The notes under the pieces are model-generated. The model saw only the letters and a list, made by a program, of their open reading frames with translations. It was not told the origin of the DNA and did not search any database. DNA of 64,000 nucleotides from a candidate division BRC1 bacterium HGW-BRC1-1. GTDB lineage: Bacteria; Sumerlaeota; Sumerlaeia; Sumerlaeales; Sumerlaeaceae. The DNA is taken from contig PHCB01000014.1 in NCBI GenBank assembly GCA_002842095.1, positions 1 through 64,000 of the forward strand. The letters run 5' to 3'. This document shows, piece by piece, positions 58,838 through 63,707 of the stretch; the first letter of the stretch is position 1, and the number at the start of each line of letters is the position of its first letter. The position numbers were made by a program, and so were the translations under genes.

Positions 58838-59596
58838 TCATTTATGGGCGAGAATAACCACATCGTCCGACTTCGTGCGATCATACGGCGCCAGGGCGAG
58901 GCTGCCATAAACCTCCGCCTGCGCACCCAGGGCTTTGAAGCAGGAGACAGCATCCTCCGCATGATAAGGTTTCAACGGAGTCACACGATGGCGCATCGTC
59001 CACTCCCCCTCCACCTTTTCGAGCATCAGCACATTAAAATCGATGTGGTCGGGGTGGTAGTCATACATGCGCACCGCAAGCGACTCAACCGGCCCACTGG
59101 TGGCTTGCAACGGGAGGAAGCGTTGTTTTTCAGCGATCAGTTTTTCGAAATTCTTGAACTGAATCACCACCACTCCGTCGGGGTTTCGTCGCTCCCAGAG
59201 CGCGTGTAACGAGGCATGAAACACGTTGATGTCCATCACGTAGGGCAGCGAATTTCCCACGCAAAGAACCGCATCGAAACGGCGGTCAATGACCTCTCCA
59301 AGTTCCGTCCACGGTGCAGTGAAGAGGCGACCCGCCGGATCGTGACCAGCCTCGCGCAAGACCTCTGCCGCATGGGAAACCATCTCGGCCGAGGCATCGC
59401 TACCCACGGCATCCAGACCATCATACAGAAACATCGCCAGATGACGCCCCGTTCCGCATGCGGCATCCAACACCGAGTTAACGTTGAAGCGTTTCCAGAG
59501 GGCTTGAAACCATGGCTGCTCAACCTTCAGCCGCCGTTCCCATCGGATGATTCGATCGTAATCCGAAGCGAGGTTGTCGTAAAACATTTCAGTCAT
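58838..59596 (-). CDS. SAM-dependent class I methyltransferase
   Basis: A 252-residue cytoplasmic methyltransferase. Motif I is VLDAACGTGRHLAMFL near residue 45, followed by the acidic loop VGSDASAEMVSHA, motif IV FDAVLCVGNSLPYV, and a C-terminal beta-rich substrate region (VRMYDYHPDHIDFNVLMLEK). It resembles the Methyltransf_25 group that includes glycine/sarcosine and small-molecule methyltransferases, but the substrate is not evident. It is 33 bp downstream of gnd and probably the last gene of the sugar-acid operon. ATG 59587 is an alternative start. Confidence 0.85.
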   Translation of the reverse strand: MTEMFYDNLASDYDRIIRWERRLKVEQPWFQALWKRFNVNSVLDAACGTGRHLAMFLYDGLDAVGSDASAEMVSHAAEVLREAGHDPAGRLFTAPWTELGEVIDRRFDAVLCVGNSLPYVMDINVFHASLHALWERRNPDGVVVIQFKNFEKLIAEKQRFLPLQATSGPVESLAVRMYDYHPDHIDFNVLMLEKVEGEWTMRHRVTPLKPYHAEDAVSCFKALGAQAEVYGSLALAPYDRTKSDDVVILAHK

Positions 59597-59629: not shown

Positions 59630-61087
59630 TCAGGCGTTATACTGGCTTGACGCGGTATCGCCGCCTTCTCCGGTCCAGTTGGTGTGAAAGAACTCACCAA
59701 GAGGACAGTCCGTTCGTTGGTAGGTGTGCGCACCGAAGTAGTCGCGCTGGGCCTGCAACAGGTTCGCCGGCAGTCGTTCCGTGCGGTAACCATCGTAATA
59801 AGCCAGAGCAGAGGAGATCGACGGCATCGGGATGCCGTGAGTAATAGCCACCTTGAGCACGCGACGCCACGCCCCCTGCCCTTCCATGATGGCGCTCCGG
59901 AAGAATGGATCGAGCAGGAGATTCTGAAGCGTGGGATTGTGATCGAACGCTTCTTTGATCTTTCCCAGAAAACGCGACCGAATGATGCATCCTCCACGCC
60001 AGATGAGCGCAATGCCACCATAGTTCAGATTCCAGCCGTGGGCTTCCGAGGCCGCCTTCATGAGTTGATAACCCTGCGCATAGCTGATGAGTTTCGCGCA
60101 GTACAACGCCCTGCTCAGGTCATCGAGGAAAACGTCGCGATCTTCCGTGAATGGCTCCTCTCCAGGCCCTTCAAGGACCCTCGAAGCCGCAACACGTTCT
60201 GACTTCAACGCCGACAGGAACCGCGAGAACACAGCCTCCGCGATCAGGGTGAGCGGCACGTTCAGCTCCAGCGCATTGTTTACCGTCCACTTGCCCGTGC
60301 CCTTCTGACCCGCGGCGTCGAGGATGGTGTCCACCGTCGCCTTGCCGTCGGCTTCGCGGTAGGCGAGAATGTTCCCCGTGATTTCGATGAGATAACTATC
60401 CAGATCGCCCTTGTCCCACTTGCGGAAGGTGGCCGCCATGTCGTCGTTGCTCATGCCAAGCATGTCGCGCATCAACTGATAGGCTTCGGTGATCAACTGA
60501 ATGTCGCCGTACTCGATGCCGTTGTGGACCATCTTCACGAAGTGACCGGCGCCACCACCGCCCACCCAATCGCAGCAAGGCTCCCCATCGTCGGTTTTCG
60601 CCGCAATGGACTGAAAAATCGGTTTGACCTCAGGCCACGCCTCCACCGATCCACCGGGCATAATGCTCGGTCCGTTGAGCGCCCCCTCTTCACCACCAGA
60701 AATGCCGGTGCCAATAAACTGGATTCCACGCGCTTCGAGTTCCTTTACGCGCCGGTCAGTATCTTCCCAATTACTGTTGCCGCCATCAATGATGATGTCG
60801 CCCTTCTCCAAATAAGGAAGCAACTGCTCGATTGTGGAATCGACCGGCTTGCCCGCCTTGATCATCAGCATCGCCTTGCGGGGTCGCTTGAGCGACGCGC
60901 AGAATTCTTCGACCGAATGTGCTCCGTACAGGCTCTTGCCCGCGCCGCGCCCTTCGACGAACTCATCCACACGGCTGACGGTGCGGTTGAAACAGGCCAC
61001 CCGAAAACCATGGTTGGCCATGTTCAAAACAAGGTTCTCGCCCATCACGGCCAAACCAATCACTCCAATGTCGCACAACTCTGTCAT
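59630..61087 (-). CDS. gnd: 6-phosphogluconate dehydrogenase, decarboxylating
   Basis: A 485-residue enzyme oxidising 6-phosphogluconate to ribulose-5-phosphate and CO2. Seen are the dinucleotide motif IGVIGLAVMGENLVLNMANHG, FNRTVSRVDEF with the NADP-recognising Arg, IDGGNSNWEDTDRR, the signature GTGISGGEEGALNGPSIMPGG, GAGHFVKMVHNGIEYGDIQLI with the catalytic Lys and His, and the C-terminal IWRGGCIIRSRFLGKI and RTDCPLGEFFHTNW. It lies 19 bp after gntK, so gluconate made by the operon can be channelled to the pentose phosphate pathway. Confidence 0.97.
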   Translation of the reverse strand: MTELCDIGVIGLAVMGENLVLNMANHGFRVACFNRTVSRVDEFVEGRGAGKSLYGAHSVEEFCASLKRPRKAMLMIKAGKPVDSTIEQLLPYLEKGDIIIDGGNSNWEDTDRRVKELEARGIQFIGTGISGGEEGALNGPSIMPGGSVEAWPEVKPIFQSIAAKTDDGEPCCDWVGGGGAGHFVKMVHNGIEYGDIQLITEAYQLMRDMLGMSNDDMAATFRKWDKGDLDSYLIEITGNILAYREADGKATVDTILDAAGQKGTGKWTVNNALELNVPLTLIAEAVFSRFLSALKSERVAASRVLEGPGEEPFTEDRDVFLDDLSRALYCAKLISYAQGYQLMKAASEAHGWNLNYGGIALIWRGGCIIRSRFLGKIKEAFDHNPTLQNLLLDPFFRSAIMEGQGAWRRVLKVAITHGIPMPSISSALAYYDGYRTERLPANLLQAQRDYFGAHTYQRTDCPLGEFFHTNWTGEGGDTASSQYNA

Positions 61088-61106
61088 TTTCAGGTCACCT
61101 TTGTTG

Positions 61107-61631
61107 TCAGGATTTTTTGCAGGGCTTGATGCCTCTTACGCTCAACTGCCTCATCGCTTCATCGGCCATTTCACTCGGCACTAAAAGGTTGGACACAACC
61201 ACCGCGTCGTCTGGTTCCTCAAGGTCGCAAAACTGTCCGGCGAGAATCTGGTCGTAATCGCGGATGAGGTCGTGGCCCACCTGGGCACGCTGCTTCAATC
61301 GGCCGGCTATGGTTGCGGCATCGCCGCGAATGTAAACGAAGACCATATCCGGGGAACCGGTGCGCAGGAGATCGCGATATTTTTTCTTGAGCGCAGAACA
61401 CGCCAGCACGGCCCCACCCGCCTGCTCCCAGCCGGGCATATCGGCCGCCAAGCTGAGCAACCAGGGGCGCCGATCATCATCGTCCAGAGGAATATTGGAC
61501 TGCAATTTTGCGCGGTTTGCGGCGGGATGATAATCGTCGGCGTCGTGAAATGCCACTCCAAGGCGCAAGGCCACTTCCTCCCCCAGCGTCGTCTTTCCGC
61601 AACCCGTCACGCCCATCACCACGATGATCAT
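61107..61631 (-). CDS. gntK: Gluconokinase
   Basis: A 174-residue P-loop kinase phosphorylating D-gluconate at C6. Walker A is VMGVTGCGKTTLGEEVALRLG, followed by FHDADDYHPAANRAKL, PLDDDDRRPWLLSLA and the lid-adjacent CSALKKKYRDLLR, all characteristic of GntK/IdnK. ATG 61631 was selected; it overlaps the stop of the upstream epimerase-like gene (ATGA). The frame extends to 61667 without family resemblance. The coupling argues that the product of the upstream protein is gluconate or a close relative. Confidence 0.95.
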   Translation of the reverse strand: MIIVVMGVTGCGKTTLGEEVALRLGVAFHDADDYHPAANRAKLQSNIPLDDDDRRPWLLSLAADMPGWEQAGGAVLACSALKKKYRDLLRTGSPDMVFVYIRGDAATIAGRLKQRAQVGHDLIRDYDQILAGQFCDLEEPDDAVVVSNLLVPSEMADEAMRQLSVRGIKPCKKS

Positions 61632-62849
61632 GCCCCGCCCTCCGCGAACTGAGATTTCAACGCCCACAATCCCAACGCCGGATTCGATATAAAGAAAATC
61701 TCTTCACCGTCGGGCATGGTTTGCAATCCGTCGCGAAGCTGTTCGACAGGGTAACGCCTCATCGCATCATCGAGGTTGCCATGTTCAAATCCCACCGCCT
61801 CAACCTCGGCTCGTGAAAGTCCGCCCGCGCAGTACGTAATGCGGAAACGCCCTTCCGATGAACCATGAATCAGATGGGCCGCAGCACTCAGATTCTCGCG
61901 TAACTCTTCGTTTTCATCAACCTGTTTGAGGGTGGTGGGCGTACCGCGATAACCATAGCATCGGATGAGTCGATCGATCTCGGCATCCTCGCCAAAATGG
62001 CGGACGCCCGGCGCAATAATAATCAATTCACCTTCATCCGCCATGGCCAGCCGCGTGCGATAGATCGCCTTGTTGCCAAGCCAGGTGGACTGATACTCGC
62101 CCGCATCGAGATAAACGACCGCCTTGACGATGGGCTTGTCGAGAAGGTCGAGATTCACCACCTGCGCCAACCGCGCCGCCGCTTCGAAGCACCGCCGGTC
62201 GCGCCCTGAGAACAGGCCGCGGGTGACCAGTCGCCCCTCGTCATCCTTGGCGCGAACGGTGTGAATGTAAGCGATGGGCCAATCGCGTGCGAAGTTATCC
62301 GTCATGTAATCGAAAACCGCGCGCACCGGCGTGTCCACCCGTCCCATCATGCGTTCCATGCCATGCACGGCCCCGAGGAAATGGGTTTTATTGATGGTGT
62401 CGGACCCACCCACCCCCGTAAAAATATTCTTGTTGTAGTTCGCCATGCCGATGACCTCGTGCGGTACGACCTGTCCCACTGACAGAATCAGATCCCATGG
62501 CTCATCGGTTAACGCCCGGTTCACTTCGCTGCGCACCGGCCAGTCTAGGCGGCCCTCGCTCCATTCACGAATCGCGCTGGCGGGAACATCACCCCAATGC
62601 CGCAAGAGGCGTCATCGGCACGTGGGTACCCAGGGCCGGGAGGATAGTTATTTCGGTCTTCGCCTCGCGCAAGATGTCATGCAACATCACCGTAATCCGG
62701 CCCGCATGGCTGTGGTACCGCGTGAAGTCAGGAGGGATGATGAGCACCCGCCGCAGCGCCCCGGCAGAACGCAGCATCTCGCGCAAGTGCTGCTCGATAG
62801 TCGCGTCATCAAGCACAACTCCGGGGCCACCCAGTTCAAGATCGATCAT
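61628..62849 (-). pseudogene. LarA-superfamily (DUF2088) racemase/epimerase interrupted by a frameshift; candidate gluconate/mannonate 2-epimerase
   Basis: Two adjoining frames together make one protein of about 410 residues, the normal LarA size. The first (62849 to 62589) gives 86 residues ending LPALGTHVPMTPLAALG and a TGA; the second (from 62605, TTG) resumes with RHWGDVPASAIREW, which continues the family alignment. GTH in the first part corresponds to catalytic His108 of LarA; in the second, VVPHEV (His174-like), NYNKNIF (Lys184-like) and INKTHFLG (His200-like) are present, so both parts are needed. LarA enzymes use a nickel-pincer cofactor to racemise or epimerise 2-hydroxyacids, and a gluconate 2-epimerase (GntE) is known in the superfamily. 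Its neighbours are D-mannonate oxidoreductase-like and gluconokinase genes. The break could be a true mutation, a programmed shift or a sequence error. Confidence 0.78.
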
Positions 62850-62870
62850 TACAATTTCCTCCGCCTAATC

Positions 62871-63707
62871 TCAAACGCCGCTATAAGCGGAGAAACCGCC
62901 ATCAATGGGAATGATTGCCCCGGTCACAAAAGCCGACGCATCCGAGGCAAGCCAGACCGCCGTGCCCGCCAGATCCTCCGGCACGCCAAAGCGTCCCATG
63001 GGGGTGTGCGCAATCACGGTCTCACCGCGCGGGGTCAGCCCACCATCCTCGGTATTGAGCAGAAAACGATTTTGTTCGGTGCAGAAAAAACCGGGAGCCA
63101 TGGCGTTCACCCGCACGGGGATTTTCAGATCCATCAGGAAATGTACCGAAAGCCACTTGGTGAAATTATCCACCGCAGCCTTCGCCGTGCCATAACCCGC
63201 CACCCGCGAAAGGGGCCGCGTGGACGACATCGACGAAATATTGATGATGCTCGAAGGCTTGCCGTGGGCCGCCATGTGCTTGCCGAAAACCTGACTCGGT
63301 AACACGGTGCCCGCGATCAGGTTCAACTCAACAACACGTTTCAACGCATCCATCGGCATGTCGAAAATGGTTTCACCCGGCGCCACGGTGGCCTGCTTTA
63401 CGTTGCCCCCGGCGGTGTTCACGAGGATTTGGATATCCCCCCATTCCGCCGTGACCCGATCCAACGCGACCGCGAGCGCCTCTGAGGATAAACAATCGCC
63501 TCCCACGCCCATGCACTGGAGTTTTTCGTCTACAAACTCTTTCGCCCTCTCACAGGCCGCCTCTTCGCGAAGGTCCAGCAAGGCGACCTTTGCACCTGCT
63601 CGGGCCAATCCCCTGCCGATGGCTCCGGCCAACACGCCACCGCCTCCGGTGATGACGGCGGTCTTTCCTTCAAGGTTGAATAAATTATCTGTGCTCATGG
63701 CGAACAT
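62871..63707 (-). CDS. SDR oxidoreductase, fructuronate reductase / D-mannonate oxidoreductase type
   Basis: A 278-residue short-chain dehydrogenase. The dinucleotide motif is AVITGGGGVLAGAIGRGLARAG; NTAGGN, the catalytic Ser in INISSMSS and Tyr/Lys in VAGYGTAKAAVDNF follow. The C-terminal part GFFCTEQNRFLLN, GGLTPRGETVIAHTPMGRFG and IPIDGGFSAYSGV closely matches the SDR-type D-mannonate oxidoreductases such as Bacillus YjmF. That enzyme reduces D-fructuronate to D-mannonate in hexuronate breakdown. AGGAAAGG lies four bases before ATG 63707, favouring it over ATG 63698. It is the first gene of the leftward operon with the epimerase-like gene 21 bp downstream. Confidence 0.88.
   Translation of the reverse strand: MFAMSTDNLFNLEGKTAVITGGGGVLAGAIGRGLARAGAKVALLDLREEAACERAKEFVDEKLQCMGVGGDCLSSEALAVALDRVTAEWGDIQILVNTAGGNVKQATVAPGETIFDMPMDALKRVVELNLIAGTVLPSQVFGKHMAAHGKPSSIINISSMSSTRPLSRVAGYGTAKAAVDNFTKWLSVHFLMDLKIPVRVNAMAPGFFCTEQNRFLLNTEDGGLTPRGETVIAHTPMGRFGVPEDLAGTAVWLASDASAFVTGAIIPIDGGFSAYSGV

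Follow-up and report, generated by a model that had tools for sequence, protein, structure and literature searches.

The window, meaning the whole 64,000-nucleotide stretch analyzed here, carries a four-gene operon that lies entirely on the minus strand (Table 1). The genes code, in order, for a D-mannonate oxidoreductase of the YjmF/UxuB type (an SDR), a LarA homologue, a gluconokinase (GntK), and a 6-phosphogluconate dehydrogenase (Gnd). A gap of 21 bp separates the SDR from LarA, LarA and gluconokinase overlap by 4 bp (ATGA), and 19 bp lie between gluconokinase and Gnd. An earlier sequence-only reading of this DNA had claimed the four genes, their order, and their tight packing, and all three are borne out; the profile matches also agree with the families it had assigned.

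Table 1. Features of the operon and the gene that follows it, in window coordinates
Feature	Position	Strand	Basis
SDR-type D-mannonate oxidoreductase/fructuronate reductase (UxuB, YjmF-like), 278 aa from ATG 63707	62871..63707	-	NF006132, Pfam adh_short_C2
LarA homologue, whole broken gene	61628-62849	-	NF052594, two pieces
N-terminal piece of broken group-18 LarA, 86 aa	62589..62849	-	NF052594, 69.3 bits; residue map
C-terminal piece of broken group-18 LarA, at most 325 aa, shifted frame	61628..62605	-	NF052594, 499.8 bits, profile 98-410
Gluconokinase, GntK/IdnK type, 174 aa	61107..61631	-	TIGR01313
6-phosphogluconate dehydrogenase, decarboxylating, Gnd, 485 aa	59630..61087	-	TIGR00873
Class I methyltransferase	58838-59596	-	

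In profile searches, the SDR scores 333.8 bits against NF006132 (PRK08277, D-mannonate oxidoreductase; cut-off 281), and its start is the ATG at 63707 or the one at 63698. The gluconokinase reaches 135.6 bits against TIGR01313 (cut-off 113.75) and is the only GntK above the cut-off in the genome, while Gnd scores 754.4 bits against TIGR00873 (cut-off 426.7). The methyltransferase gene begins approximately 33 bp after Gnd on the same strand and could share its transcript.

The LarA homologue belongs to group 18 of its superfamily (NF052594, “NPN_18_hexonate”) and is split over two pieces in different frames, neither of which attains the curated NF052594 cut-off of 500 bits; the 11 intact relatives score 566 to 630 bits. 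With the intact gene of a member of the same family (locus L035 of genome G003) as the reference, the damage consists of a frameshift and a net deletion of approximately 68 bp directly 3' of the PALGTHxPMT motif, with the junction near position 62600. Approximately 24 residues are gone, including the MFPGIP...HDWR segment, which has residues invariant in the 11 intact relatives, so the break exceeds a simple frameshift. The catalytic and NPN-binding residues are all present, though over two fragments. By the residue map, the equivalents of D72, R75, and H108 lie in the N-terminal piece and those of H174, K184, H200, and K298, along with the E-V loop, in the C-terminal one.

Since the gene is broken as assembled, the function of the window’s own copy is doubtful, and either the route was recently lost in this genome or the assembly is in error. 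The chance that the operon of this strain is truly decaying, leaving LarA as a pseudogene and the other genes for gluconate use only, falls somewhat short of even, and such decay would not conflict with the explanation preferred below. A deletion and frameshift that take out conserved residues favor it, as does the profile search of the genome, in which no second group-18 gene was found. On the other side, this is a single assembly, and the remaining LarA sequence has no other stop and keeps every catalytic residue, as would be expected if the loss is very recent or the assembly wrong.

Groups 19 and 20 have been assayed as D-gluconate 2-epimerases, named GntE1 and GntE2 (Desguin 2020, PMC7583248); the sequence-only reading had named a gluconate 2-epimerase in the LarA superfamily, and mannonate/gluconate epimerization has been shown for both groups. 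Groups 18 to 20 have loop signatures in common, and for group 18 a hexonate substrate is hypothesized only (PMC7583248). NCBIfam names the same family “putative hexonate epimerase” (NF052594/LarAH group 18), where the activity is predicted only, whereas the context and fusions described here point to mannonate/gluconate. A further GntE is described in PMC11770544, the available passages of which contain no group-18 assay, and the literature searched yielded none. Among solved structures, 4NAR (T. maritima GntE2) is the nearest by sequence. The NPN-binding and catalytic residues, the E-V loop, and the W are invariant in all 80 group-18 relatives.

The best explanation, with a probability of about three in four, is that the operon codes for the lower half of a pathway of hexuronate catabolism that avoids the UxuA/KDG/KDPG branch by means of a group-18 LarA epimerase. 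UxaC, encoded elsewhere in the genome, would convert glucuronate to fructuronate, which the SDR would convert to D-mannonate. The group-18 enzyme, using the nickel-pincer nucleotide (NPN) for which LarB, LarC, and LarE are encoded elsewhere, would then invert C2 and turn D-mannonate into D-gluconate. GntK would phosphorylate the gluconate, and Gnd would decarboxylate 6-phosphogluconate to ribulose-5-phosphate. This explanation is supported by the uxaC/uxaE context, two gene fusions, the lack of a UxuA or KDPG aldolase match in the genome, the NPN-cofactor genes, and the residues kept in relatives. The pathway claimed earlier stands for the operon family, on the strength of context, fusions, and cofactor genes; the window’s copy of LarA cannot make the full protein.

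The genome, that of an uncultured member of the Sumerlaeota, comprises 3.77 Mb in 34 contigs. UxaC is present (C2:274958-276349, 589 bits), as are the genes for NPN synthesis, with LarC and LarB at C3:148155-149976 and LarE at C8:144766-145548, all above the cut-off. Neither UxuA (PF03786) nor KDPG aldolase (PF01081) gave a match in this genome, a non-detection limited by an assembly that is 94.8% complete. There was also no match to UxaE (tagaturonate epimerase), which is present in some relatives, so only entry from glucuronate, and not from galacturonate, is supported here.

The link to UxaC extends to the relatives. In a set of 39 genomes, made up of this one and 38 family- or class-mates, 12 of the 13 with group 18 have UxaC versus 4 of the 26 without it (p = 5e-6); among those at least 90% complete, the figures are 7/7 versus 2/14 (p = 3e-4). 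Within this set, UxuA is never matched at full strength in a group-18 genome; the UxuA-like matches in G008, G026, and G033 are weak (96 to 131 bits) and did not qualify as UxuA. Most of the other group-18 Sumerlaeota (11 of 12) do have a KDPG aldolase, which counts against the proposed route; its absence therefore characterizes this genome and not the group.

Neighbors within 10 kb of the group-18 gene were counted at 80 loci taken from GTDB genomes. Gnd is near the group-18 gene in 48 of them, a UxuB-type SDR in 44, and a PfkB-type sugar kinase in 43, followed by UxaC (22), UxaE (22), and a LacI regulator (21). The recurrence of Gnd and the SDR means that the operon association is not due to chance, although the sampled loci are mostly from Bacteroidota, and the counts are therefore not independent events. 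By the titles of the records, loci with adjacent pathway genes come from approximately nine phyla: Sumerlaeota, Bacteroidota, Ignavibacteriota, Chlorobiota, Planctomycetota, Armatimonadota, and Acidobacteriota, along with a deltaproteobacterium and a spirochaete. The sequence-only reading had expected uxaC to accompany these genes and uxuA and kdgK to be absent, and it regarded uxuA and kdgK beside homologous operons as evidence against itself. The first expectation agrees with both the genome and the locus counts. The second holds in part: uxuA is undetected in this genome, but it adjoins the group-18 gene at 4 of the 80 loci, a minority, and a strong UxuA is encoded somewhere in 11 of 23 sampled group-18 genomes from outside the Sumerlaeota.

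A PdxB-like 4-phosphoerythronate dehydrogenase (e.g., L132:12509-13690) is another frequent neighbor of group-18 LarA and Gnd, found near the group-18 gene at 28 of the 80 loci. Because 6-phosphogluconate dehydrogenase is inhibited by 4-phosphoerythronate (PMC6449344), a protective role for the PdxB-like enzyme is possible.

In two Sumerlaeota genomes, LarA and gluconokinase are a single protein. The G003 locus used above as the reference encodes LarA18-GntK as one ORF of 606 aa, with the SDR before the fusion and Gnd after it, which is the window’s order with two genes fused. Locus L039 of G036 encodes GntK-LarA18, in the opposite order, as one ORF of 617 aa. Each half of both fusions scores above its own family cut-off. 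The opposite domain orders imply two separate fusion events, and the two fusions are also apart on the gene tree. This pair of fusions, with the breadth of the conserved cluster, is the strongest new evidence.

We infer both the substrate of group 18 and the order of epimerization relative to phosphorylation, and a kinase-first order has a precedent. Cell extracts of Lactobacillus suebicus have mannonate kinase and 6-phosphomannonate 2-epimerase activities (PMC6978723), and as mannonate is phosphorylated first in that organism, epimerization may come second here as well. Applied to this operon, the kinase would phosphorylate mannonate, and the group-18 enzyme would epimerize 6-phosphomannonate to 6-phosphogluconate; the fusions fit both orders, and the kinase beside group-18 LarA varies (GntK, PfkB, or PFK with HAD). 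What makes this rather unlikely is that the window’s kinase is of the GntK type, that E. coli GntK is reported, in work cited in a passage of PMC6978723, to be unable to use mannonate, and that the substrate of GntE1 and GntE2 is free mannonate (PMC7583248). Another alternative, a gluconate/idonate salvage operon, can be considered highly improbable. The SDR would then be a 5-keto-gluconate reductase, GntK and Gnd would use gluconate, and LarA would act on an unrelated hexonate. The SDR does match gluconate 5-dehydrogenase models, but at 175 bits, below the cut-off, compared to 334 bits and above the cut-off for the D-mannonate oxidoreductase model, and the co-occurrence with UxaC/UxaE and the LarA–GntK fusion argue that the product of LarA feeds GntK.

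The kinase position shows further variety. A KdgK-like PfkB kinase is the usual neighbor of the group-18 gene in Bacteroidota. In several Sumerlaeota, a protein of the HAD fold, with a DxD motif and a weak match to PF13419, is encoded at the kinase position beside group-18 LarA, and it is paired with PFK in some Bacteroidota (occurrences at L036:17118-18110, L037:4731-5870, L100:6787-7713, and the neighborhood of L178). Six of the Sumerlaeota group-18 genomes have GntK, and six have the HAD family, never both. The idea that the HAD protein replaces the kinase is weakened by G034, in which the HAD gene adjoins an aldolase and a PfkB kinase. A linked PFK was considered as the missing kinase in Sumerlaeota group-18 genomes and is unsupported, with close homologues only in G069, G070, and G076.

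The source of the nickel cofactor is a puzzle raised by some of the other genomes, and one that counts against the proposed route. In 23 further group-18 genomes reached through the loci, mostly Bacteroidota and Ignavibacteriota, LarB, LarC, and LarE are all strong in six. Five others have a divergent set, with LarB at about the cut-off, a weak LarC, and a LarE that is strong in G062, G064, and G075 and scores 127 to 132 bits in G079 and G082. In the remaining 12, profile searches detected none of the three proteins, and the only matches were weak, such as PurE and ATP-pyrophosphatase relatives would be expected to give. Two of the 12 are isolates, Maribellus sp. YY47 and Draconibacterium aestuarii. 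The group-18 LarA genes of all 12 are intact (genomes within G063-G081; loci L068, L071, L077, L082, L083, L087, L095, L100, L104, L106, L120, and L124), with the active-site residues unchanged. The presence or absence of LarB/C/E switches at least two times on the gene tree. A failure of the profile searches is possible, and it would need to hit three families at once. Seven genomes (G063, G065, G071, G073, G076, G080, and G081) have the cluster without LarB/C/E and without a strong UxuA, so the enzyme would be needed there despite no visible cofactor source. One could tentatively consider group-18 LarA proteins to be hexonate 2-epimerases that are physically coupled to sugar-acid kinases and that, in many Bacteroidota and Ignavibacteriota, may work without endogenous NPN synthesis, on scavenged, exchanged, or differently made cofactor, though this is on balance improbable.

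The sequence-only reading knew of no described pathway with this series of steps, which proved mistaken. The same series, from fructuronate through mannonate, gluconate, and 6-phosphogluconate to ribulose-5-phosphate, was proposed for Thermotoga (Rodionova 2012, as cited in passages of PMC6978723 and PMC7583248), where gntE lies between the genes for fructuronate reductase and gluconate kinase (Rodionova 2012, as cited in a passage of PMC6978723), and the epimerase activity was shown for GntE1/GntE2 (PMC7583248). The GntE route of Thermotoga maritima shares with this operon the placement of gntE, the route to the pentose phosphate pathway, and a LarA fold with NPN. It differs in that GntE2 belongs to group 20, not 18 (163 bits against the group-18 profile), and in that T. 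maritima, a control genome here, also has a UxuA match. The isomerase/phosphoketolase route of L. suebicus (Valk 2020, PMC6978723) has the same entry (fructuronate, mannonate) and exit (6-phosphogluconate, Gnd) but phosphorylates before it epimerizes, and the genes for its two new activities were not identified in that work. The canonical UxaC-UxuB-UxuA-KdgK-KdgA route has UxaC and UxuB in common with this one, but UxuA and KDPG aldolase are undetected in this genome. The route is thus already known; what is new is another phylum, the Sumerlaeota, and a LarA group that has no reported assay in the literature searched.

The analysis places this unassayed LarA group in a specific, testable pathway. 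If the proposed route is true, a nickel-pincer shortcut by which uronic acids from plants and algae reach the pentose phosphate pathway would be widespread among the Bacteroidota and in several phyla of uncultured bacteria. Annotation on its own might credit such genomes with the UxuA/KDPG route.

Other LarA homologues were also seen. A second one in this genome (L046:9428-10789, on C2) is malate/2-hydroxyacid racemase-like and below the cut-offs. Its neighbors encode FabF, an acyl-CoA ligase, and a protein that resembles threonine synthase and has a carrier-protein-like end. At L047, L049, and L052, LarA homologues only distantly like group 18 are also found alongside an SDR, Gnd, or GntK, so more than one LarA group may have been recruited into this gene set.
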